From an uncultured Flavobacteriales bacterium (GTDB lineage Bacteria > Bacteroidota > Bacteroidia > CAIKAF01): 64,000 nt of DNA. The position numbers and the translations under genes are program-made. The notes below the pieces were generated by a model. The model did not search any database. It was not told where the DNA came from and saw only the letters and a program-made list of their open reading frames with translations. Location of the stretch: NCBI GenBank assembly GCA_903825395.1, contig CAIKAF010000025.1:1-64000 (forward strand). The letters run 5' to 3'. Shown here piece by piece: positions 15,848 to 38,597 of this stretch (the stretch's first letter is position 1; each line of letters starts with the position of its first letter).

Positions 15848-18800
15848 ATGCAGAGGGCAATACAAATAGGTTGTACGCTTATCTTTTTTTTCTTAGGCCA
15901 TTTTTTGCAAAATGCCCACGGACAAAGGGATACTCTGTTTTGGTTCGTAGCCCCTGAAGCTGCTCAAAACCATGGCGATCGACCCATTTTATTCCGTTTT
16001 GCTTCGTATGGGCAACAAGCATCCATCTTGATTGAACAGCCTGCCAATCCCAACTTTCCTCCCATGACCTTGAATTTGCCGCCCAACGCGGCTACATCTC
16101 TTGATGTAACTTCTTGGATTAATATGGTGGAAAATAACCCCGCCAATACAGTGCTGAATTACGGCTTTAGAATACGATCAACCGCCGAAATTACAGCCTA
16201 TTACGAAATCAATCCCACCTGCAATTGCAACCCCGATATTTTTACGTTGAAAGGAAACAATGCCCTGGGAACCAGCTTTTTTCTTCCCTTCCAAAATTTT
16301 CTTTCCAATGCCTCCTACGCCCGGTCTGGCTTTGATATTGTAGCTACTCAAAACAACACCAGCATTACCATTACTCCCACCAAAAATATTGTTGGTCACA
16401 ATGCCAATGTTCCCTTTACCATTACACTAAACGCCGGACAAACTTGGAACGGTCGAGCCTCAGGTTTTGGTACCGCCGATCACCTGGAAGGTACGACTGT
16501 TGTTAGCAATAAACCCATAGCCATTACCATCAACGACGATTCCATGTCGGGTGCCCCCTATGGCGGATGCGCCGATATTATGGGCGACCAGATTGTTCCG
16601 GTTAGCCGCGTAGGAGATGAATACATTGTGGTAAAAGGGTACCTGAATGGACCCGATAAGTTTTATGTGCTCGCCACGGCCAATGGAACTACAGTTTCAG
16701 TGAACGGTACTGCTGTAGCTACTTTAAATGCCGGACAAACCTATGTGAACACCCTTAGCAATCCCGTAGCGTATGTCAACACAAGCCAACCTACATATCT
16801 TCTTCATACTACCGGGTTTGGTTGCGAAGTAGGAGGGGCTCTGCTTCCCACCATCGAATGTACAGGCAGCTCAAGCATTGCATTTACTCGATCTACGAAT
16901 GAGTTCTTTGCCCTAAACCTTATCGTTCAAACCGGAGGACAAGGGAGCTTTACCCTGAATGGCAATGCAGCCTTGGTTACCGCCGCCGCATTTAGCCCCG
17001 TCCCAGGTTCAAACGGAGCTTGGATGTATGCCCAAATTAACCTTTCAGGTTCTGTACCCCAAGGTTTAGGATCCAGACTAACCAATTCTACTCACTTGTT
17101 TCACATGGGAATTGTGCATGGTGGAGCTTCTTCCGGTTGCCGATATGGATATTTCAGCGATTACAATAAGTTCCAGTTCAACCTTCAAACACCCCCCGCC
17201 GATACCATCTGTGAAGGAAGCCCCTTTATGCTTCAAGTGGCCCCCATCAACGGAACAACCTACAACTGGACAGGGCCCAATAACTTTACCGCCAACGGCG
17301 ATTCAGTAACCGTGAATCCAGGCCAATTGATCCATGATGGACTGTATATCATCAATGGAAATGTAGGAGCCTGCCCGGTAACTCCAGATACATTTGATTT
17401 AACAGTGATACAGCAGCCGCAAACTCCACAATTGCAATACAACAACCCCCTTTGCGACGGAGATGTGCTTCAACTGCAATCTACACTGCCACAAAACCAT
17501 ACCATTCAATGGTCTGGACCGGCCAATTTTTCAGATTCCATTTCAAATCCTAGCATTTCAAATGTAGATTCTACCCATTCCGGTTTGTATTCAGTACTGG
17601 TATATGATGCCTTTTGCCCCAGCGATACGGCTCAGATTTCTGTAACTGTTCATCCCGTTTTTGCTCATACCCAAACTCCTGTAATCTGCCAAGGAGATTC
17701 CATTTACACTCAAAATGCCTGGCAAACCACTTCAGGAACGTATGTAGATAACCTGAGCTCAATCTTCGGATGCGATAGCGTTGTTACCCGACAACTCACC
17801 GTCAATCCTACCTACAACATTAATCAAAATCCCTCCATTTGCAGAGGACAAACCTATACCCTGCCCAATGGTCAAACCGCTACAAATCCCGGAACATACA
17901 CCTCCCTCCTTTCAACCATTAAAGGCTGCGATAGCCTCATTACATCCCAGCTTATAGTAAATGATACGTTTAGAGTAGCTCAATTCCCGTTTATTTGCAG
18001 CGGAGACAGTCTTCAACTTCCTGATTTGAGCTATGTCACTCAAGCAGGACTGCATTCAGTTACCCTGAACACCATTCACGGATGCGATTCTACCATTGAC
18101 CTGAACCTCTCCCTTTGGCCAACCTACAACCAACAACAGGCCGATTCCGTTTGCCAAGGACAAACCTATACTTTACCCAACGGACAAACAACCACTCAAG
18201 GCGGAGCCTTTATTTCAAATTTGAGTTCCATCAATGGCTGCGATAGCACCATCATCACTATCTTATACCTGAAACCTACCTACAATTTAACCCAATCTCC
18301 AGGCATTTGCGAAGGACAATCCTATACCCTTCCTCATGGACAAATTGTTACAACAGCAGGCTCTTACGTTTCAAATCTCAGCACGGTATTTGGCTGCGAT
18401 AGCACCATAACGACAAACTTAAGTGTTGAAGACACCTTTTTCGTGGCTGTACAACCCCAAATATGCCAAGGTCAATCTCATACCCTACCCAATGGAAATA
18501 CGGTACAACAAGCCGGAAATTATTCAGTAACGCTTTCTTCAGTAGCGGGTTGTGATTCCATTGTTCTTACTCAATTGAGCGTGGCTCCTGTGTATTCACT
18601 CAGCCCTCAAATCGGACTTTGCCAAGGAGATTCTCTTCAATTGCCCGACGGATCTTTTGTTCTTTCAGCCGGAAACTACCCAACATTACTGAGCAGCAGC
18701 CAAGGCTGCGACAGCTTAATTACAACTCAGGTTGTTCAACATTTAACCTATCAAACCACCGATAACCGAGGGTTTTGCCAAGGTGGGTCGTTTATTTTAC

Positions 18801-19852
18801 CCAATGGCCAACAGGTATTTTCACCTGGAACCTATGGTACAACCGTACCCAGTATTTTTGGTTGCGATTCTACCGTTCAAACCCTCCTGGTTCAATGGCC
18901 TATTCATTCCGGAACCGAAACGGTGTTGAAATGCCAAGGAGAAACCTATGTTCTTCCCAATGGAAATACGGTAAGCAACGCCGGTTCATATACCTCAGTT
19001 CTCAGCAATCAATTCGGTTGCGACAGCACCATTGTAAGCACAGTTATTTTCAATCCTACCCATTTTCAAACACTAGATGTTGACTTATGTCAAGGACAAT
19101 CTTGGTCAACCGCAGCCGGACCTCAATCCCAATCTGGAACCTATACCGATTCCTTATCCAATCAATTCGGTTGCGACTCTGTATTTGTTTCTGACATTAC
19201 CGTTCACCCAACCTTTGAAGATACCTTGACCTTCTGGCTTTGTCCAGATTCAGCACACTGGGTTGAAGGTATTCCGTATTTTGGTACAAACACCGTTAAA
19301 GAGCATTTAACGACATCTATGGGTTGCGACTCTATAACCTGGCACAGAACACTAGAAGTGCCGGTAGAACCCAACGTATTGCCCGAGGTGGCCCGAATTT
19401 GCGAAGGTACCCTTAGTTATTCTCTGAATCCGTCTATAGATTGGACATGGACGCCTGGAACCAACAGTCCTTCCATTACCATTGCCGACACCGGACTGTA
19501 TGCGGTGCTTGGTGTGAATAACTATGGTTGCATCATTAAAGACACGGTTTGGGTACGAAATGGATGTGAACCCAGTTTATACATTCCTTCCATCTTTACC
19601 CCCAATGGAGACGGAATCAATGATATGTTCAGGGCTTTTGGAACCCGAATTAGCTATTACCGATTGGATATATTTAACCGCTGGGGCGACCTGTTGTTTA
19701 CTTCCGAAAAAATGGAACAAGGCTGGGACGGAACACACCTGAACATGCCATCTCCGGTTGGAGTGTATTCCTATAAAATCTCGTTTGAGGTGGAAGAAAA
19801 TCTTCCCTTTGATACCGAACCTAGGGTAGGATTGGTGGTTTTAACCCGCTAA
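15848..19852 (+). CDS. large T9SS type B secreted adhesin-like protein with IgGFc-like N-domain and eleven repeats
   Basis: A 1334-residue surface protein. After the signal peptide (residues 1-26) comes a domain resembling the IgGFc-binding protein N-terminal domain (about 130-440, including NKPIAITINDDSM and GDQIVPVSRVGDEYIVVKGY). Two PKD/Ig-like modules follow (about 450-605). Then about 11 tandem repeats of roughly 51 residues (612-1165) follow the pattern CQGQ-YTLPNG-...-G-Y-..-L-S-..-GCDS. Each repeat carries two cysteines that could form a disulfide. The last ~90 residues are a CHU_C/gliding-associated sorting domain (IPSIFTPNGDGINDMF, FNRWGDLLF, GWDGT, GVYSYKI). It is probably exported by T9SS and anchored at the cell surface as an adhesin, by inference from the domains. 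Confidence 0.85.
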   Translation: MQRAIQIGCTLIFFFLGHFLQNAHGQRDTLFWFVAPEAAQNHGDRPILFRFASYGQQASILIEQPANPNFPPMTLNLPPNAATSLDVTSWINMVENNPANTVLNYGFRIRSTAEITAYYEINPTCNCNPDIFTLKGNNALGTSFFLPFQNFLSNASYARSGFDIVATQNNTSITITPTKNIVGHNANVPFTITLNAGQTWNGRASGFGTADHLEGTTVVSNKPIAITINDDSMSGAPYGGCADIMGDQIVPVSRVGDEYIVVKGYLNGPDKFYVLATANGTTVSVNGTAVATLNAGQTYVNTLSNPVAYVNTSQPTYLLHTTGFGCEVGGALLPTIECTGSSSIAFTRSTNEFFALNLIVQTGGQGSFTLNGNAALVTAAAFSPVPGSNGAWMYAQINLSGSVPQGLGSRLTNSTHLFHMGIVHGGASSGCRYGYFSDYNKFQFNLQTPPADTICEGSPFMLQVAPINGTTYNWTGPNNFTANGDSVTVNPGQLIHDGLYIINGNVGACPVTPDTFDLTVIQQPQTPQLQYNNPLCDGDVLQLQSTLPQNHTIQWSGPANFSDSISNPSISNVDSTHSGLYSVLVYDAFCPSDTAQISVTVHPVFAHTQTPVICQGDSIYTQNAWQTTSGTYVDNLSSIFGCDSVVTRQLTVNPTYNINQNPSICRGQTYTLPNGQTATNPGTYTSLLSTIKGCDSLITSQLIVNDTFRVAQFPFICSGDSLQLPDLSYVTQAGLHSVTLNTIHGCDSTIDLNLSLWPTYNQQQADSVCQGQTYTLPNGQTTTQGGAFISNLSSINGCDSTIITILYLKPTYNLTQSPGICEGQSYTLPHGQIVTTAGSYVSNLSTVFGCDSTITTNLSVEDTFFVAVQPQICQGQSHTLPNGNTVQQAGNYSVTLSSVAGCDSIVLTQLSVAPVYSLSPQIGLCQGDSLQLPDGSFVLSAGNYPTLLSSSQGCDSLITTQVVQHLTYQTTDNRGFCQGGSFILPNGQQVFSPGTYGTTVPSIFGCDSTVQTLLVQWPIHSGTETVLKCQGETYVLPNGNTVSNAGSYTSVLSNQFGCDSTIVSTVIFNPTHFQTLDVDLCQGQSWSTAAGPQSQSGTYTDSLSNQFGCDSVFVSDITVHPTFEDTLTFWLCPDSAHWVEGIPYFGTNTVKEHLTTSMGCDSITWHRTLEVPVEPNVLPEVARICEGTLSYSLNPSIDWTWTPGTNSPSITIADTGLYAVLGVNNYGCIIKDTVWVRNGCEPSLYIPSIFTPNGDGINDMFRAFGTRISYYRLDIFNRWGDLLFTSEKMEQGWDGTHLNMPSPVGVYSYKISFEVEENLPFDTEPRVGLVVLTR

Positions 19853-23799: not shown

Positions 23800-25662
23800 T
23801 TAGCGGCCCAAGAAAACAAGCAGGATGGCGATGTCGGACGGAGAAATGCCGCTGATGCGGGCTGCCTGTCCGACCGTTTGCGGCTGCTGTTGTTTGAGTT
23901 TAAGTCGGGCCTCCATAGAAAGACCATGAATGCTCATGGGGTCGAAATCTTCCGGAATGCGCACATAATCCAATCGCTTTATCTTTTCTGCGGTGTCTTT
24001 TTCGCGCTCCATGTACCCTGCATATTTGATGCGAATTTCGGCATCTGTAATGGCTTCGGGAGACGCATTCTGCAATTGAAGTTTCAGCGTTTCATCGGCC
24101 GATGCTAGCCATTCAAGGCTAATTCCAGGGCGCGAAAGCAGCATGGTCCAGCGCATTTTTTGCGGAATTTCGGAACTATCTATAGAGGCCAATTGTGGAT
24201 TGATGTGCTCGGGATCGGCGCTGTTTTTGGAAAGAAACTGTGAAATTTGCTTGCTTTCTTGCAGCTTTTTATTCAGTTTTTCCATGCGTTCGTCGGAGAT
24301 TAGGCCCAATGTATGGCCGAGCGGACTCAGGCGTTCATCGGCATTGTCTTGCCTTAGCAAAATTCGATATTCTGCGCGCGAAGTGAACATGCGGTAGGGC
24401 TCATCGGTGCCTTTAAGAATTAGATCGTCGATGAGGACTCCGATGTAGGCTTCGTCTCGGCCCAGAACAATGGGATCGTGGTTTCTGACCTTTTGAACGG
24501 CGTTAATTCCGGCCATCAGTCCCTGGCAGGCGGCCTCTTCATAGCCGGTGGTACCGTTGATTTGCCCGGCAAAAAACAGGCCATCGATCAGCCGTGTTTC
24601 TAGTGATAGCTTTAGCTGTGTGGGAGGGAAGTAATCGTATTCAATGGCATATCCGGGTCGGAACATCTTTGCATGTTCAAGTCCGGGAATTTCTCGAAGC
24701 GCTTTTGATTGAACGTCTTCGGGAAGGGAGGTTGAGAAACCGTTCAGGTAGATTTCCACGGTATTCCAGCCTTCGGGTTCGATGAAGAGTTGGTGCCTAG
24801 TTTTATCTGCGAATCGGTTTATTTTATCTTCTATTGAAGGGCAATAGCGTGGTCCTAGGCTTTTAATGGCTCCGTTGAACATGGGGCTGCGATCAAATCC
24901 GCTTTCCAGAATTTCATGAACCAGGGGATTGGTGTAGGTAATGTAGCAGGGGAGTTGTTGGTTAGGAAGCTTCAGATTTTCGTATGAAAACCGTTCGGGC
25001 TGTTCATCTCCGTCTTGCCGATCGGTTTTGCTGTAATCGATGGAGCGTCCGTCGATGCGGGGTGGTGTTCCGGTTTTCATTCGTCCCGACTCGAATCCAA
25101 GAGCCACGAGTTGTTCGGTTATGCCGTATGCTGCAGGTTCTGCTGCCCTGCCTCCGCCGTAGTTTTTTTCTCCGATGTGGATTAAGCCATTCAGGAACGT
25201 GCCTGAGGTAAGTACTACCGTTTTCCCGGCAATGTGGTTTCCGCGTGCTGTAATAATTCCTTTCAGGCTTTGTTCTTGCAGCCACAGTCCTTGAACCGGT
25301 TCTTGCCAAAAATCAAGGTCTGGGATTTGTTCCAGATATTGCCTCCAAAGATCGGCGAACAGTTGTCGGTCGTTTTGTGTTCTAGGGCTCCACATGGCAG
25401 GTCCTTTGGAGCGGTTTAGCATGCGGAATTGAATTCGAGAGCGGTCGGACACTTTACCCGAGAGTCCGCCAAGGGCATCAATTTCTCGTACAATTTGGCC
25501 TTTTGCGATTCCGCCCATCGCGGGATTGCAGGACATTTGTCCTATGCGCGACAAATCCATGCTTACCAATAGGGTTTTGGCTCCGCGGTTGCCTGCCGCG
25601 GCCGCCGCCTCGCAGCCGGCATGACCGCCCCCAACAACTATAACATCGTACACATCTACCAT
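23800..25662 (-). CDS. mnmG: tRNA uridine 5-carboxymethylaminomethyl modification enzyme MnmG (GidA)
   Basis: An FAD-dependent enzyme that, with MnmE, modifies U34 of tRNAs. The 620-residue protein has the Rossmann FAD motif [11 protein letters not shown] near the N-terminus, [26 protein letters not shown], and the C-terminal [14 protein letters not shown]. The start at 25662 ([10 protein letters not shown]) is normal for the family. An upstream ATG at 25725 is rejected because the extra codons cross a parS site. The gene is often near the replication origin in bacteria, which fits the parS sites here. Confidence 0.96.
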
Positions 25663-25677
25663 GGCTTTTTTTGAACA

Positions 25678-25693
25678 TGTTCCACGTGGAACG
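25678..25693. other. parS: parS centromere site 1
   Basis: TGTTCCACGTGGAACG contains the perfect 14-bp palindrome GTTCCACGTGGAAC, which equals the Pseudomonas parS core and is a close variant of the B. subtilis consensus. ParB binds such sites and spreads to segregate the origin region. It lies 15 bases upstream of the mnmG start, so ParB binding could also affect mnmG transcription. Confidence 0.85.
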
Positions 25694-25825
25694 CACCACA
25701 TGAACTGCGCAAAAATACGCAGCATTGCTGAATTTTAGTCCCTTTTCGGTTGATTTTCCTGACAACTGGCATTGTGGCTTCTTGGCACCAATTGTTTAAT
25801 TCCAATTTCATCGAATCAAGTAAAA

Positions 25826-25841
25826 TGTTCCACGTGGAACA
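25826..25841. other. parS: parS centromere site 2
   Basis: TGTTCCACGTGGAACA is a perfect 16-bp palindrome with the same 14-bp core as the site 148 bases away. Two such sites within 165 bp in an otherwise gene-free stretch are very unlikely by chance. The remaining intergenic sequence 25842-26046 shows no gene. Confidence 0.88.
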
Positions 25842-26046
25842 TTTTGTGCATTCCATAATAAAATTGCAACATTTGAATTGGATTCTGTGCGGGTGGATTG
25901 GACTGAAAGTAGCATTTGGTGGTCTCTTATTTCTTTGGAAAATAAAGGCAGGAAATTTGAATTAGCCTTTACAAGAGGGTGAATTCGCCAATACATCTGG
26001 CATAAAATTCGTTTTTCGGACCATTCTAAAATACCAAAGATGAGGG

Positions 26047-27165
26047 CTAAAACCAAGCCGAAATGCCAACCGTGATTTGGCCGTTGTGTTGAGCTTCTGC
26101 CCCTTGTGCATTTCGAAATACCCGTTCAAACCCATAAAAATAACGGCCTTCTACGCGGAACAAAAACCGATCCCAGCCATGAACATTGAAGCACAAGCCC
26201 GAACCCAACACATGAAAATTCTTATTTTGAGTTTGTGGTTGAACCAACACATTGTTTTGGTCTCTGAAATATTCCAATCGACCGGAAAGGGAGAACGTGG
26301 GGTTGAAGCGGTAGCGGGCAATTCCATTTAGACTATACCAAATGGGATTGGACTCAGAGCCTAGGCTGTCTTTTTTCATCTGCATACCCAGATACATGCT
26401 GGATGTGAAATCCCATTTTTTTCCGGAATAAATCAAGAACACATCGCTGAATAGACGGGTTCGGTATTCAGGAGTCGAATCTGAAGCCTCGTCTCCGATG
26501 TAGGTATTCCAATTTAAAATCAGTTTTTTGCTCGGCCGGTATTCCAGTTGCGTCGCCACAGCCTTACCCTCATTGTATTCGGTGATGTTCTGCCATCCGT
26601 TAATTCCATACACACTTAGGGTTAGCTTTTCAGAAAGGGGAAACTGAGCCTTTATTCCAGTTAGATAATACGGCACGTTTTCGGCGGCCAGAGAACGGGT
26701 GTACATCAAATGGTCTTTTGATAAATAGGACTCGTTGGTGAAAGGCGAACCAATTACTCCTGCCGATATCCAAGCATTGTAGTTCTTAAAGGGCTTAACC
26801 CCAATGCTGGCCTCCAACAAAAACTTTAAGGGCTCTGGCTCGTTTTGATAATTGACCATCATAAAGGTACCATAGCCCGCCACAAGCCTAGATTGCAAAC
26901 GAGGAGAGCGGTACCGTAAATCGAGGTAGGCTAGGTTGATGTTCATTTCATTGTGACGCGCCGAAGAGCTGAGGTAATCTATGTTTTTTGAAATGGGCAA
27001 GGAACTGTTGTACGAATAATACGTGTCAATAAATCCACCAATACTCATGTTGCCAACTTGAACATTGGCCAGGGTATCGATGGTAGCTGTATTAACAACT
27101 TGAGCTTTTGGGGCGCCAAGGCCCAGAAATAAACCAACCAAAATGGGTAAAATACCGTATTTCAT
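26047..27165 (-). CDS. outer-membrane beta-barrel porin, OmpL-like (BBP2 type)
   Basis: A 372-residue outer-membrane protein starting at 27165 with a signal peptide (MKYGILPILVGLFLGLGAPK). It shows GGFIDTYYSYNSSLP, the family's first barrel strands, and alternating hydrophobic/aromatic strands to the terminal ...VGISAWF, ending in Phe as barrels do. It fits the beta-barrel porin-2 (OmpL-like) family. The frame is open a further 48 codons upstream (to 27309), but those codons come from dispersed repeat P1, so the longer start is an artefact. The gene separates mnmG from the ybeY operon, which are usually neighbours. Confidence 0.8.
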   Translation of the reverse strand: MKYGILPILVGLFLGLGAPKAQVVNTATIDTLANVQVGNMSIGGFIDTYYSYNSSLPISKNIDYLSSSARHNEMNINLAYLDLRYRSPRLQSRLVAGYGTFMMVNYQNEPEPLKFLLEASIGVKPFKNYNAWISAGVIGSPFTNESYLSKDHLMYTRSLAAENVPYYLTGIKAQFPLSEKLTLSVYGINGWQNITEYNEGKAVATQLEYRPSKKLILNWNTYIGDEASDSTPEYRTRLFSDVFLIYSGKKWDFTSSMYLGMQMKKDSLGSESNPIWYSLNGIARYRFNPTFSLSGRLEYFRDQNNVLVQPQTQNKNFHVLGSGLCFNVHGWDRFLFRVEGRYFYGFERVFRNAQGAEAQHNGQITVGISAWF

Positions 27166-27249
27166 ATCGGGGATGTTTTCGGGTGCAAGGTAAGCCATAA
27201 TGAGCAAAGCCCAAGGTTTTCCAAATCCTGGAATGTATTCCACAGTAAT

Positions 27250-27402
27250 ATCTTCTACAATAATGTCAGCCCTACGGGGTTCTGGTGTTGTGAGTTCCAA
27301 TATTTCCAAGGGGGCTTAAAACTGGATATCGGCCTCTGTGCCCTTTGCGCCGACATAGAGCTCTTTGCGGTAAAAAAACGTCAAAGCCGAAAGCAGTTTA
27401 GC
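27250..27402. repeat. compound repeat P1-S1
   Basis: It consists of unit P (TTCTACAATAATGTCAGCC and then the CTACGGGGTTCTG block) followed by GGGGGCTTAAAACTGGATAT and the S block CTGTGCCCTTTGCGCCGACA ... TTTGCGGTAAAAAAACGTC. The same order recurs at 43.4 and 58.2 kb. On the minus strand P reads through as EPRRADIIVE in frame with the porin gene. From 27403 to 27619 I see nothing further. Confidence 0.75.
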
Positions 27403-27619: not shown

Positions 27620-28054
27620 TTATTTCTGCTGTTTCCAAGCCCGAACCGCCAAACAGGCATCTTCAGCCGATCGCATCTCGACCTTATCGTTCGCGTTTTT
27701 ATCCTTAAATCCCAACAAATGCAACAGCCCATGCACCATTACGCGGTCTAATTCTTCTGCGAGCATGTGGCCATTGGAACGGGCATTTTCTTTTACCCGA
27801 TCCACGGAAATATACAGTTCACCATGGATGGGGTCTTGAGGAATACGCGCCCGCAAATCAAAGGTAATGATGTCGGTATAATCGTCGTGGTTTAAATGCC
27901 TCTGATTCATTTCTAAGAGCTCCTCATCGCGCATAAAAATGATGTTTAGCGACTCGATTTCTTTGCCTTTATTGTTCGCACATTGCAGCAACCAGTCTCG
28001 GCGTTGCCTGTGGTTTCCAGCTCTCCAGCCCCAAGTTGAAAAAAATCGAATCAC
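27620..28054 (-). CDS. ybeY: endoribonuclease YbeY
   Basis: A zinc-dependent RNase for 16S rRNA 3'-end maturation and ribosome quality control. 144 residues, with the signature HGLLHLLGFKD near residue 110. The third metal ligand, usually the His right after the Asp, is not in its usual place (the sequence continues KNANDK), as in several Bacteroidota YbeY proteins. It starts with GTG at 28054, sharing 4 bases (GTGA) with the upstream gene's stop, and so is translationally coupled. The HGELYIS and ITFDL segments are typical. Confidence 0.9.
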   Translation of the reverse strand: MIRFFSTWGWRAGNHRQRRDWLLQCANNKGKEIESLNIIFMRDEELLEMNQRHLNHDDYTDIITFDLRARIPQDPIHGELYISVDRVKENARSNGHMLAEELDRVMVHGLLHLLGFKDKNANDKVEMRSAEDACLAVRAWKQQK

Positions 28055-28479
28055 GATACCCGAAAGATTAAGTCAACTTGTCGCCCTTCATCGGAGTAGC
28101 TCAGTTCATCGCTCAATCTCCGCATTAAAAATATGCCCCTTCCACATTCGCGTTCTAGGTTTTCAGGCAAGGTTGGATCGGGCACATTTTCTTCGCAAAA
28201 CCCAGGTCCACAATCTTTTACAGCAAATCTCAAGGTGTGGTCGCTGTAGGCATAAAACAGTTCAAATTCGGGCAGACAGCCACCGGGACATCCATGCTGA
28301 ATGGCATTGTTCGTGGCTTCACTCAGGGCAATCAGCACATTTCCCAAATAGTCCAACGAAATGGCATGCGCATCAAACAGGTGCTGGACCAGCTGCTCTA
28401 CGGTTCGAAGCGATTCCGATTGAGCCGGCAGGGTCAGATGCCCGGAAGGCGCTGAAAATACGTTAGGGGAGGTATTCAT
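28051..28479 (-). CDS. ATP-binding protein, anti-sigma-factor (RsbW-type) kinase-like
   Basis: 142-residue HATPase_c_2 domain protein. The GHKL motifs are the N-box ALSEATNNAIQHG, the G1 box VKDCGPGF and the G2 box ERECGRGIFLMRRLSDE. These proteins phosphorylate anti-anti-sigma factors or otherwise act in partner switching. No STAS-domain partner is visible in the window. It lies between DUF4175 and ybeY with 4-bp overlaps on both sides (ATGA and GTGA), so it is certainly part of that operon. The order DUF4175 - ATPase - ybeY - mnmG is common in Bacteroidota, to my knowledge. Confidence 0.85.
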   Translation of the reverse strand: MNTSPNVFSAPSGHLTLPAQSESLRTVEQLVQHLFDAHAISLDYLGNVLIALSEATNNAIQHGCPGGCLPEFELFYAYSDHTLRFAVKDCGPGFCEENVPDPTLPENLERECGRGIFLMRRLSDELSYSDEGRQVDLIFRVS

Positions 28480-31400
28480 GGGGCTGTAGAATTGAAATAT
28501 TCTGAAACGCGTTGTTTGTAATAAGGCTTGAAAGCAGGATTGGCAAAGCGTAAAAATTCCGTTTCATGTTCTCTCCGCTTGCGGTATTCTTCCAGAATTT
28601 GTTCCGGCAATTTCCAATCTTTCAGGTTTTCGTTTGATTCCCGTTTTTCATCTTGATCTTGCTTGCGCAAGGCCTTTTCTGATTCCATCATGCGCCGGGT
28701 AATTTCTTGTTGCCGAAGTAGCGTTTGCGCATTGATTTGCTTGTTTAAAATATCCCGTTCGGTCTCCTCCATTTTCTTCATCATTTCAGCCATACTTTTT
28801 CTTCCGTCTTCGCCCATATCCTTCATCATCTCTTCCATTTGTCGACGTATTTGCTCTTGTTCTGCGGCCATTTGGGCGAGTTTTTTAGATTGTTCCCCGC
28901 TTTTACCCCCTTCTCCTTGACCGGGTTTACCTTGCTTATCGTTCTTCTCTCCCTCTTTCTTTTCCTGCATTTTCTTTTGCATTTCTTCCATTTTCTTCTG
29001 CAATCCCAGCTGACGCTTTATCATTTCCTGCATTTGTTCCGGTTTGCTGTTTCCGGGCTTATTGCATTGAGATCCGCCAGAAGAGCCCATGGAGTTCATT
29101 TGCTGTTGCATTTGGTCCAAGGCCTCGCTAAGCATTAAAGCTAGGTTGTTCAGCCCGGTCATGGCTTCTTGCTGTCTTGAAGCGGTGGTAGGATACATCC
29201 GGTCTGCCCCTGCTTCAATGGCCGATTGCATGCCGCGCCGAACTTTCAACAGTTCGTCCATCACTACATTTTCCAAATCTGGAACCCGCTTGCTAAGCGC
29301 AATCAAAGAGTCTTCCACCTGACGGGCATCGGTTGCCAAGCCCCGCTGTTTCCGTAATACATCCCGCATCAATCCATCGCTTTGCCTGCCGTTTTTGTGT
29401 TGATCCAACAAGGCTTCTTGAGAAAAACTCAACTGAAGAACATCGTCCAACAAGGCCCGCAAGTCTTCCATGTTTTCTCCCTGCTGAGCCGAGGCCATGC
29501 TTTGCTGCTGTTCCTTCATTTTTTGAGCCATCTTTTTCATTTTTTGAGCCGCCGATTTTTGCTTGGGGCTCGCTTTTTCCGGCTGATTTTTCTGCAGTTC
29601 TTCCTGGGCATCGTTCATTTCCTGTTCAATGTCCTGCATTTCATCTTCTTTGGGCAGCTCAAGGTCGTTGGGTTTTTCCAATTCCTTGTTTTTCTCGTCC
29701 AGCTCCTTCATTTGTTTTTCAAGGGCTTCGGCCTCTTTTTTCAGCTCGGCCTGTTTCTCTGCTTTGCTGGCATTGTCCTGGCTTTTATCTTTTTCAAGGG
29801 CTTCTTGCTTCTTTGCCAATTCTTCCATCTGCTGAATGGCTTCTTGCAGGCGCTGTTCTACTTCAAATTGCTTGAAAAGTTCTAAGGTTCGGTCCAATTC
29901 CCGTTCTACCTGCTCGTTGCTCATCTCGAGCTGATCCATCATTTTCTTCAGCTCTTCTTTCGAGATTTTATCCATGAGCTGTTCCAGCTGTTTCAGCATA
30001 TTTTCAACCTTACTGTCCTTCAATTCATCGAGTAGTTCCTCGATTTTTTTCTGTTTATCTAAAATAGATTGCTCTGTTTTTGATATATTCTCATTCCTAA
30101 GGTTATTTTCCTTTTGTTTTTCTTGAAACTTCTGCATTTCTTCCTGCAGCTTCATGCGTTGTTCCAACAGGGCTTTTAATTGTTGTTTTTCTTGCCAGCC
30201 CGGATTTTTCTGGTTCAACAGGTCTCGTTTTAGTTTTTCAGATTGTTCTTTAAGCGATTCCAGCTCTTTGAGCTGTTCTTGCATTCCCTTTTGAATTTGT
30301 TCGCTGGCCTCTTTGCGTTCGGCAGCCACTTCTTCTCGGCTTAAAATTCGGTGTTGCACCACGGGCGTTCGTGCAGATTTTGGCCCATTCACCCCATCAT
30401 TATCCCAAACTACGAAGCAGTACGAAAGCTGATCGCCCAAATTAAACCCCAGGCTGCCTAAATCTACAGGATGTTGAAAACTAAGCAAAGGATCTCGGCT
30501 CAGAACCGGGAGAGCCACACGCTTCCATTCGGAAAAGGGAAGATTGGGGTCAGAGGAATAGTAAAATGCAATTCGGCTTAGTCCATGGTCGTCTTTTGCT
30601 TGTCCAAGAAATAAGATGCGCGACAAGGCTAAGCTGTCGGCCACCGATTCCACTTGAATTTCCGGATAGGCATCAGGAATCACTCGGACTGAATACAAGG
30701 CGCTATCGGGCTGACGAAAGCGTTCATTTCCGGCTTTCAGGCCAAGAACAAAGGACTGCATAGCCCGGCGAGAGAAACGGATTTTATTTTCGGCATTCGG
30801 ATTCATGTGTTGGATACTGTCGGTCCAATACAACCAGATCTGCCGGGCATCTTTCCACAGCATCTCCCAATCCAGTTTGGTTCCTGCCGGAACAGTTAAG
30901 TCTTGAGGGTTCAATACCTCCTCATCCTGCATATTCAGGTAGGAGGGATAATCCAATCTCACTTTCATGTTCAGCAACATTGGCCGGGGCAATACAGATA
31001 AGGTATAATTTCCGGTTTGGTGGTCGCCCGAACTGAAAAAAAAGTTCATGTCGCGGGAGGGATTTTTAAACATGTAGCTGTACACCTGAGGCGCTTCTTC
31101 TGTCATGCGGTAGGCGGCTCCACCCAAGTGCAGAAAAAGGACTTCAGGAAGCTCGTTTCCCGACAGTTTAATTTGAAGTTCAAAATCTTGGTGAGCCGGC
31201 GTACTTAGGCTGGAGTTTAGAATTTTCACCTGATAGGGAGGAGGTGGCAGATACACCTGTTGATAATTAAAAAGGCGTTCAGATCCCTGGGTAATCGCTT
31301 CCGGTTGGGCAATCCAAACCAAGGCGAGGACAGATGCAGGAATCAACAGCCAGGGGATTCGCTTTCGGCTCACACTGAAATCAACCGCCCGGTGAAAGGC

Positions 31401-31826
31401 GAAGGGACTCAGCTGTTGGGTTCGTTGTTCTATGGAAGCCAGCAGCAGCTCTCGGCTATTTCCTTCGGTATTCAACATGTCTTGCAGTTGAAGGGCATTG
31501 ATTAGGCGGTCGCCGATGCCGTCAAAATGGGCGCCGACCTTCAGTGCCGCTTCGGAATAGCTCATTCTTCGGCGCAATCGGTACAGAGCCAATATTGGCC
31601 GCACCACATAATAGCCCAACAAGGCAGCGTTGCCCAACAGAAGGGAGTAAAATAGGGCAGCGCGCACCGGTCGTTCAAAACGCCCCAGGTATTCTGAAAA
31701 CGTAAACAGCAAAAAAGCGCTAAGGCCAAGCCCCAGAGCAAATAGTCCGCCCCGCAAAAACTCGTTCAGGTAGTACCTGCGAATGTATGCGTCTAATTTT
31801 TGCTGAAGTTCGGTAGCGTTGTGCAT
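28476..31826 (-). CDS. DUF4175 family membrane protein with long coiled coil
   Basis: A 1116-residue protein. Two transmembrane segments lie near residues 25-45 and 58-80 (after RRYYLNEFLRGG) and a third near 155-170. They are followed by a periplasmic beta-rich domain (about 180-500). A very long Glu/Lys/Gln-rich coiled coil runs from about 510 to 1080, with the low-complexity stretches KSGEQSKK and EMQKKMQEKKEG. The architecture and N-terminus match DUF4175, whose molecular role is unknown; it is conserved next to ybeY in Bacteroidota. It heads the operon with the ATPase and ybeY. The coiled-coil composition makes the plus strand C-rich and spawns false ORFs there. Confidence 0.88.
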   Translation of the reverse strand: MHNATELQQKLDAYIRRYYLNEFLRGGLFALGLGLSAFLLFTFSEYLGRFERPVRAALFYSLLLGNAALLGYYVVRPILALYRLRRRMSYSEAALKVGAHFDGIGDRLINALQLQDMLNTEGNSRELLLASIEQRTQQLSPFAFHRAVDFSVSRKRIPWLLIPASVLALVWIAQPEAITQGSERLFNYQQVYLPPPPYQVKILNSSLSTPAHQDFELQIKLSGNELPEVLFLHLGGAAYRMTEEAPQVYSYMFKNPSRDMNFFFSSGDHQTGNYTLSVLPRPMLLNMKVRLDYPSYLNMQDEEVLNPQDLTVPAGTKLDWEMLWKDARQIWLYWTDSIQHMNPNAENKIRFSRRAMQSFVLGLKAGNERFRQPDSALYSVRVIPDAYPEIQVESVADSLALSRILFLGQAKDDHGLSRIAFYYSSDPNLPFSEWKRVALPVLSRDPLLSFQHPVDLGSLGFNLGDQLSYCFVVWDNDGVNGPKSARTPVVQHRILSREEVAAERKEASEQIQKGMQEQLKELESLKEQSEKLKRDLLNQKNPGWQEKQQLKALLEQRMKLQEEMQKFQEKQKENNLRNENISKTEQSILDKQKKIEELLDELKDSKVENMLKQLEQLMDKISKEELKKMMDQLEMSNEQVERELDRTLELFKQFEVEQRLQEAIQQMEELAKKQEALEKDKSQDNASKAEKQAELKKEAEALEKQMKELDEKNKELEKPNDLELPKEDEMQDIEQEMNDAQEELQKNQPEKASPKQKSAAQKMKKMAQKMKEQQQSMASAQQGENMEDLRALLDDVLQLSFSQEALLDQHKNGRQSDGLMRDVLRKQRGLATDARQVEDSLIALSKRVPDLENVVMDELLKVRRGMQSAIEAGADRMYPTTASRQQEAMTGLNNLALMLSEALDQMQQQMNSMGSSGGSQCNKPGNSKPEQMQEMIKRQLGLQKKMEEMQKKMQEKKEGEKNDKQGKPGQGEGGKSGEQSKKLAQMAAEQEQIRRQMEEMMKDMGEDGRKSMAEMMKKMEETERDILNKQINAQTLLRQQEITRRMMESEKALRKQDQDEKRESNENLKDWKLPEQILEEYRKRREHETEFLRFANPAFKPYYKQRVSEYFNSTAP

Positions 31827-37021: not shown

Positions 37022-37927
37022 TTAAAAATTCATTATATTGATTATCAAATCATCAAAACCAGGTTTGTTCTCTTCGTAGATCATTTCTTCTTTCATTTTG
37101 GCGTAATCGTTTTCCCAATTGGCTATCACTTGTTTCGGAGGAATAGGGTTAAGCCTATGTGGATGGTGAAAATTGTAATCAACTGCGCTTACTCTTGAAA
37201 ACGTGTATCTGTGCGCAACTATGGTCTCATAGAGCACTTTATTGTTGACGGCTTTTTCAGCTATTCCGGCTTTTATCAAATGATGCACATCGTACAAATG
37301 ACGACTTAATCTATCGACCCGCATTTTTGCCGGCGGTCGATGAAATTCCTCATGAAGCAAGAATAACTTCTCTAAGAAAGTACGTTCTGCAATTGCTGTT
37401 GGAACTTTAAACACAGGTGCTGCAAAATCTTTATCCGCATAAATCTCATCTACGAGCGAACCAAATGTTTGAACAGTAAAAGGTTCTCTCAATGAACGGC
37501 AACTTACCTCTATTTGTACTCTTGGTAAAATGTAATCAGAATCAGCAGGTATAATATTCGAATAATAGATTTCCAAGATTCTTGGGTCTTGGTCGCGTTC
37601 TCCTGTATCAACAACCTTAAAAATAAGATCGTTGTACCCATTTTTTAATAATTCCCCTTTCAGCTCTTCAAAGAAAGTTCCTGCCGTATAGGCTCCTGCT
37701 GTCTTTCTGAGTTTGTTTCTTTGGTTCTTTCCTAAATCTCCTTTAAAACCAAAAAATGCTGGGTCAATAGCCAAATCAATATCTTCTGAAAGGCGGTTTA
37801 TAAGCTTCCACGCTTTGCTCAATGATGTTCCACCTTTAAATACCAAATGCTGGGCAATTTGCATTTGGAAGATGATTTCCAAAGTGCGGCTGACCCACCA
37901 GTCTTTTTCTACTGCAAAAGGTTTCAT
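37022..37927 (-). CDS. AbiEii-type nucleotidyltransferase toxin (5' end possibly frameshifted)
   Basis: A 301-residue protein of the AbiEii/AbiGii toxin family, a nucleotidyltransferase fold. Motifs are VEKDWWVSRTL, HLVFKGGTSLSKAW (G-T-S motif) and RLSEDIDLAID (D-x-D metal site), with later YDVHHLI. Such toxins act in type IV toxin-antitoxin systems and some block phage. The codons upstream of ATG 37927 still read family-like protein (...YKIDAAEKAAIFTEIAAQ) but no in-frame start exists. A perfect ATGA overlap with the antitoxin stop exists at 37992-37995 and would be in frame with one more T in the T5 run (37987-37991). It therefore either starts internally at 37927 or carries a 1-base frameshift. 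Confidence 0.75.
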   Translation of the reverse strand: MKPFAVEKDWWVSRTLEIIFQMQIAQHLVFKGGTSLSKAWKLINRLSEDIDLAIDPAFFGFKGDLGKNQRNKLRKTAGAYTAGTFFEELKGELLKNGYNDLIFKVVDTGERDQDPRILEIYYSNIIPADSDYILPRVQIEVSCRSLREPFTVQTFGSLVDEIYADKDFAAPVFKVPTAIAERTFLEKLFLLHEEFHRPPAKMRVDRLSRHLYDVHHLIKAGIAEKAVNNKVLYETIVAHRYTFSRVSAVDYNFHHPHRLNPIPPKQVIANWENDYAKMKEEMIYEENKPGFDDLIINIMNF

Positions 37928-37991
37928 CCCCTTTTGTGCAGCAATCTCAGTGAAGATGGCGGCCTTTTCGGCTGCGTCTATCTTGTAAAAA

Positions 37992-38597
37992 TCATATTTG
38001 GCTACAGGTCAGTCCTTTTTTAATCATTTTTTGAATCCAAACTGGAGCCAGAGCAATGTCGTGTTTCAGGTCTTTTTCATCTTCCTTTTTGAGCAATTCG
38101 AATATTTTTTTACCCTCGTCTTCTGTTACATTTCCATTGCCAATTTCTTTTAGGGCCTGAATGACCAATCGGCTAATCTTGCCTTTTGCCAAAAGATTTT
38201 TTGGGGTGGTCCTTTTGAATTTAATGGTTCTTTTACCCACCTTTATTTCTCTTGGTGATCCATCAGTAAGTAAAACAATGTTCATCGGAACCTGTGTACT
38301 TAACCCGACGGCATTCAACGCATAACCTCCGGTGGGCACGGTTCTTATCCTATCTCGTTTGGCAATGGCTTCGGCTACCTCTTCTGCAGATGGGGAAATG
38401 GGCCCAATCCATTTGCTGATTTTTGGGCGAACATAAATGCCCTGTGCCACTCGGACAATGATGCCTGCCTTTTCTAAACGAAAAAGGGCTAGCCTCACTG
38501 CCTCTGATGATCCCAAATCACTGAAATCTGAAGGCAACAACAACTCTCCTTCAGGTAAGGCGTGTATTTGTGCTGCTATTTTTTCCTGTATGCTCAT
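37992..38597 (-). CDS. AbiEi/DUF6088-type antitoxin and transcriptional regulator
   Basis: A 201-residue protein. The N-terminal winged helix (about 10-60: LLLPSDFSDLGSSEAVRLAL, FRLEKAGIIVRVAQGIYVRP) is the DNA-binding part typical of AbiEi and DUF6088. The middle part (TGGYALNAVGLSTQVPMNIV, then a SPREIKVGKRTIKFKRT stretch) is the conserved antitoxin domain. It neutralises the AbiEii toxin encoded just downstream and represses the pair. A 29-bp inverted repeat lies 12 bases upstream of its start. Confidence 0.8.
   Translation of the reverse strand: MSIQEKIAAQIHALPEGELLLPSDFSDLGSSEAVRLALFRLEKAGIIVRVAQGIYVRPKISKWIGPISPSAEEVAEAIAKRDRIRTVPTGGYALNAVGLSTQVPMNIVLLTDGSPREIKVGKRTIKFKRTTPKNLLAKGKISRLVIQALKEIGNGNVTEDEGKKIFELLKKEDEKDLKHDIALAPVWIQKMIKKGLTCSQI

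Follow-up and report, generated by a model that had tools for sequence, protein, structure and literature searches.

The parS pair and its surroundings

The window analysed here is a stretch of 64,000 nucleotides beginning at base 1 of contig C25 in the genome of an uncultured Flavobacteriales bacterium (2,625,067 bases in 33 contigs). It carries mnmG, a pair of palindromic sites upstream of this gene and, further upstream, a group of genes that recurs in relatives. The features of the locus are as follows.

23800..25662, minus strand: mnmG (gidA), tRNA uridine-5-carboxymethylaminomethyl modification enzyme (Pfam GIDA, E 2.8e-162, and both C-terminal domains)
25678..25693, no strand: parS site 1, TGTTCCACGTGGAACG, with a perfect 14-bp core at 25679-25692, 15 bp upstream of mnmG
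25826..25841, no strand: parS site 2, TGTTCCACGTGGAACA, inside a perfect 24-bp palindrome at 25822-25845
26047..27309, minus strand: BBP2-family porin gene (domain match), between ybeY and the parS pair in this genome
27620..28054, minus strand: ybeY, ancestral neighbour of the parS-mnmG junction (domain match and gene order of relatives)
28051..28479, minus strand: HATPase_c_2 protein, member of the conserved upstream cluster (domain match and gene order of relatives)
28476..31826, minus strand: DUF4175-like protein of 1116 aa, member of the conserved upstream cluster (sub-threshold DUF4175 match)

Both sites contain the perfect 14-bp palindrome GTTCCACGTGGAAC and both fit the 16-bp parS consensus TGTTNCACGTGNAACA. 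Their starts are 148 bp apart, as the initial annotation had stated. The 24-bp palindrome around site 2 reads AAAATGTTCCAC followed by GTGGAACATTTT. The gap between site 1 and the mnmG ATG at 25662 is 15 bp when measured from the 16-mer, in agreement with the distance first given, and 16 bp when measured from the 14-mer; site 2 lies 163 bp upstream of the gene. A longer mnmG start proposed by the ORF caller (ATG 25725) would place site 1 within the reading frame. Since MnmG homology begins at 25662 and the DNA upstream of it is unconserved in congeners except for the parS block, we regard site 1 as intergenic.

We then scanned the whole genome for further copies, and the exact 14-mer was found only twice, both times at mnmG. 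The chance expectation for a given 14-mer in 2.6 Mb is ∼0.01–0.02, and the reversed motif, taken as a control, had 0 copies in the 2.63-Mb genome; a chance origin of the sites is therefore excluded. Other copies with one or two mismatches across the genome were non-palindromic and no commoner than those of the reversed-motif control. The motif is thus confined to this locus and not evenly scattered, and the presence of just two exact copies in 2.63 Mb, separated by 148 bp, agrees with the few sites at one locus that are characteristic of parS.

A parS-type ParB in the same genome

The genome of the window has one ParB-family gene, located on contig C20 directly after parA in a parA-parB operon. 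Its product has the N-terminal, HTH and C-terminal dimerisation domains, and its nearest solved relatives are chromosomal ParBs. R173 and G201 of ParB (Caulobacter numbering) contact parS, Q173/R201 confer Noc specificity, and lysine at positions 184/179 is treated as permissive (Jalal et al. 2020, PMC7383237). We observed that R173, N178, G201 and R204 are all kept in the ParB of this genome. R173 and G201 were invariant in 31/31 alignable Bacteroidota ParBs, position 184 was K or R in these proteins, and position 179 was mostly Y. The partner expected of parS is hence present, as a single parA-parB operon with parS-type recognition residues.

The 16-mer of site 2 is identical to parS2 and parS3 of P. 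aeruginosa, which are bound by the ParB of that organism (PMC4368675), and by analogy we infer that the window organism's own ParB would bind the two sites. The likeness to the oriC-proximal parS1-4 of P. aeruginosa extends to a small, probably origin-proximal cluster and to one ParB with parS-type residues. Unlike in P. aeruginosa, parS is here unlinked from parAB, only two sites are present in the genome, they stand at the mnmG boundary, and parS is 0.4–0.9 Mb away from dnaA in relatives of the window genome. The Noc-binding sites (NBS) of Bacillus are also palindromic sites for a ParB paralogue. However, the sites described here are of the parS type and only two in number, and the lone ParB-family protein carries R173/G201 instead of Q173/R201; a Noc/NBS nucleoid-occlusion system was rejected.

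The presence of ParB and parS in relatives was also compared. One relative with a 0.5-Mb genome is without ParB and without parS, yet it has kept mnmG, which speaks for a centromere. Speaking against it, no ParB-domain protein was detected in two relatives having 12 (G048) and 2 (G039) parS sites in all, perhaps due to assembly gaps. At a contig end of G048, a unit of 99 bp that contains a parS is repeated in tandem at least six times (L156:13202-13823 on C24; also C40 and C43).

Conservation of parS at the ybeY-mnmG-methyltransferase junction

The DNA upstream of mnmG in congeners is essentially unalignable with that of the window, save for an invariant 15-bp parS block, whose distance from the start codon is unchanged. 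The position of site 1 was kept in 5/5 congeners examined. The position of site 2, on the other hand, was shared among congeners only by G003, a near-identical genome of nearly the same species, and site 2 is therefore recent or lineage-specific.

We looked for GTTYCACGTGRAAC in 60 relatives and observed it in 54, mostly 1–2 per genome; controls were 0 in all but one. Among the 55 relatives with mnmG, 47 had a parS at ≤3 kb from this gene. Two further relatives had a one-substitution parS near mnmG (G025, ATTTCACGTGAAAC; G057, GTTTCACATGAAAC). These variants occupy the usual place before mnmG, at G025:C22:6622 and 7541 (ATTTCACGTG...) and at G057:C80:3294 (GTTTCACATGAAAC), with no canonical site. 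The ParB of G057 carries T179/R184 in place of Y179/K184, and going by the sequences, variant parS and ParB residues may co-vary.

A set of 80 named Bacteroidota loci was collected with MnmG as the only criterion (Flavobacterium, Chryseobacterium, Pedobacter, Chitinophaga, Tenacibaculum and others). parS lay ≤2 kb from mnmG in 63 of them, and control matches were 0 in 1.54 Mb. One locus counted among the negatives (L253) nevertheless ends at a contig break, and another contig of its genome has a parS pair immediately beyond an mnmG end. The sites were commonly 9–30 nt ahead of the mnmG start and 7–10 nt past its stop. A composite of half a parS and the N-terminal codons of MnmG was found in 53 of 296 genomes of the phylum, many of them outside the class of the window (control 0); this count is a lower bound, as it takes in upstream sites alone, and these only within a narrow gap.

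Two of the named loci contain longer runs of sites. In Terrimonas ferruginea, nine parS are crowded into 0.95 kb upstream of mnmG (L203:9057-9952), and in a Flavobacterium six sites follow one another in the interval from ybeY to mnmG (L206:8810-9036). These runs are local expansions of the cluster.

The usual gene order is a DUF4175-like gene and an HATPase gene, followed by ybeY, parS, mnmG, parS and a methyltransferase gene, the sites being on one or both sides of mnmG. We examined loci where this order is broken and observed the following. Eight loci, mostly from Saprospiraceae and relatives, have an mnmG lacking these neighbours, and none had a parS within 10 kb. The genomes of all eight have 1–2 parS elsewhere, close together in six cases. 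The parS pair is directly behind ybeY in one of them (L298), with mnmG elsewhere, and in L296 and L301-L303 the sites are between the genes for threonine synthase and an M1-peptidase-like protein. In these five Saprospiraceae-type loci (L296, L298, L301-L303), where mnmG has been relocated, the parS pair adjoins the M1-peptidase-like gene. Two other genomes (G020 and G030) have retained the sites with the methyltransferase gene and without mnmG, and another (G053) has retained them with ybeY and without mnmG. In Pedobacter-type genomes it is ybeY that has departed, and parS is still with mnmG. Taken over the loci, parS was present in 45 of 50 with an adjacent ybeY or methyltransferase gene vs 8 of 16 without (Fisher p 0.0015, a statistic that ignores phylogenetic kinship).

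As parS usually stays behind when mnmG leaves the ybeY-mnmG-methyltransferase cluster, we take it to mark a chromosomal locus and not to be an operator of mnmG. The linkage to mnmG belongs to the locus and not to the gene itself, and it is far broader than the initial annotation had it.

In other bacteria, the gidA-gidB-parA-parB origin cluster associates mnmG (gidA), parS and the origin region. In contrast, these Bacteroidota have parA-parB and mnmG apart, and only parS stays with mnmG. Bacteroidota parS were reportedly also detected by an earlier consensus search, in the 2007 survey of Livny et al. The link between parS and mnmG in Bacteroidota was not found in the literature that we searched, which did not cover this likeliest prior report, and no priority is claimed. 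parS has been found by consensus search in Bacteroides caecimuris and Muribaculum intestinale, according to the passages concerned of a study that is alike in phylum, in using parS clusters with GC skew to place the origin, and in that the origin was not always at dnaA (PMC10197239). Neither mnmG nor ybeY nor a conserved gene address comes up in these passages of the study.

Origin proximity and function of the sites

Since the genome of the window is in 33 contigs, its own origin could not be placed, and the placement by GC skew was done in relatives only. The skew within its own 75-kb contig was too noisy for this purpose, and the local skew averaged over the named loci was dominated by gene strand. 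The window itself does not give an oriC, as its near-consensus DnaA boxes are at chance level (14 vs 13.3 expected); an oriC/DnaA-box cluster within it was therefore rejected.

The clearest case among the relatives is G049, a nearly closed genome of 2.85 Mb. Its GC skew stays below zero until 1.32 Mb and is above zero from 1.345 Mb onwards (change point R2 0.81, permutation p 0.0005), parS is at 1.347 Mb, dnaA at 0.921 Mb and parB at 2.080 Mb. In the congener G004 (1.57-Mb contig), the cumulative skew has its minimum at ∼0.95 Mb and the best single change point is at 0.84–0.86 Mb, about 25–90 kb from parS at 0.929 Mb; dnaA is at 0.017 Mb. The distance between dnaA and parS in these two relatives is thus 0.4–0.9 Mb. 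The fit was looser in G036, with the best change point at 0.71–0.76 Mb and parS at 0.589 Mb (120–170 kb apart). In G010 the skew was consistent with the position of parS and not significant. G054 disagrees: its skew is lowest near 1.9 Mb and its parS is at 0.018 Mb; its sampling is coarse and the skew changes sign several times. The initial annotation had proposed that the sites mark an origin-proximal domain. This proposal is supported, in relatives, by the sharp flip at parS in G049 and the proximity in G004, more loosely by G036, and it is contradicted by G054. In the passages concerned of the study that includes two Bacteroidetes, the origin was likewise not systematically at dnaA and was placed by parS clusters and skew (PMC10197239).

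With high confidence we consider the two palindromes to be the chromosomal centromere (parS of a ParABS system) of this Bacteroidota genome. In the genome itself this reading draws on the sites, their uniqueness, a matching ParB with the recognition residues, and the conserved ybeY-mnmG-methyltransferase address. The earlier identification of the sites as parS accordingly stands, given that they have no further copies in the genome, are the same as known ParB targets letter by letter, occur with a parS-type ParB and form an invariant block in diverged DNA. By analogy with other bacteria, the single ParB, whose gene is next to parA on contig C20, would nucleate as dimers on both sites and then form closed CTP-bound clamps, which would slide over the neighbouring DNA including mnmG. 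ParA would then move the ParB-parS complex and in this way draw the origin regions apart after their replication. We take the element for an ordinary ParABS centromere, and its notable part is the strictly conserved gene address in Bacteroidota.

The centromere could also have a dual use, ParB loading beside the gene tuning mnmG expression as well, which would explain the narrow spacing to start and stop. We consider this unlikely. The spacing is indeed narrow on both sides of mnmG, and a precedent exists in P. aeruginosa, where ParB represses genes beside the intergenic parS3/4 and not those beside the intragenic parS1/2 (PMC5521831). However, the same spacing would be expected wherever genes are tightly packed with short gaps between them, and ParB loss leaves the neighbours of parS unchanged in B. 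subtilis and S. pneumoniae (PMC7022226). An effect of ParB on mnmG expression, which the initial annotation had raised, is possible on the strength of the P. aeruginosa analogy.

Much less probable is that the palindromes are primarily an operator of mnmG, at which a regulator, perhaps ParB, would bind just upstream of the start to control transcription. The strong clustering of the upstream gap at ∼9–30 nt before the start codon would fit an operator, as would the repression by ParB of promoters beside parS3/parS4 (PMC5521831). On the other hand, many genomes have sites only past the mnmG stop codon, the Saprospiraceae mnmG outside the cluster is without a site and the pair is elsewhere (once directly at ybeY), the sites of G020, G030 and G053 are with the methyltransferase gene or ybeY and not with mnmG, and parS is tied to the neighbouring cluster as counted above. 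As parS is usually left behind when mnmG relocates, an operator as the main role was rejected. We also asked whether parS keeps a constant spacing to the Bacteroidota promoter motif (TAnnTTTG); the positions of the motif were scattered and showed no pattern.

That the sites are RNA hairpins (a terminator or 5′-UTR structure) and not DNA sites is hardly credible: palindromes can fold and one lies in the probable 5′ UTR, but the predicted fold of the region was no more stable than shuffles (z −1.05), the exact letters are kept and not mere self-complementarity, with only the Y/R position varying, and some sites are found within mnmG itself or in unrelated surroundings.

Returning to the centromere, we lean slightly towards the view that in Bacteroidota it has kept one address, the ybeY-mnmG-methyltransferase junction, since before the classes split, and that this may be the remnant of an ancient mnmG-parS-origin cluster from which parAB and dnaA moved away. 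If so, parS at the junction would locate the origin more reliably than dnaA throughout the phylum. An address that holds phylum-wide would let the origin domain be recognised by a simple sequence mark in Bacteroidota draft genomes and MAGs, in which dnaA misleads as an origin marker (a general caution in the passages concerned of PMC10197239), and origin-based tools, for instance growth-rate estimation from coverage, would become checkable. The chromosome organisation of Bacteroidota is poorly known, and according to the same passages no known condensin homologue was found in the two Bacteroidetes of that study (PMC10197239). A fixed, minimal centromere of 1–2 sites is therefore a practical start for ChIP-seq, labelling and segregation work. 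The conserved address also raises the question of what has kept parS so close to the mnmG boundaries, at tens of bases, over such a long time.

Two other regions of the window were recorded. At 37022-38597 (minus strand), an AbiEii-type nucleotidyltransferase toxin gene stands beside a gene for a DUF6088 protein with a weak AbiEi-antitoxin match, and the two are likely to be a type IV toxin-antitoxin pair. At 15848-19852 (plus strand), a secreted protein of 1334 aa is encoded that has an IgGFc-binding-like domain, repeated 'CQGQ.YTLPNG' units and a type IX secretion C-terminal domain.
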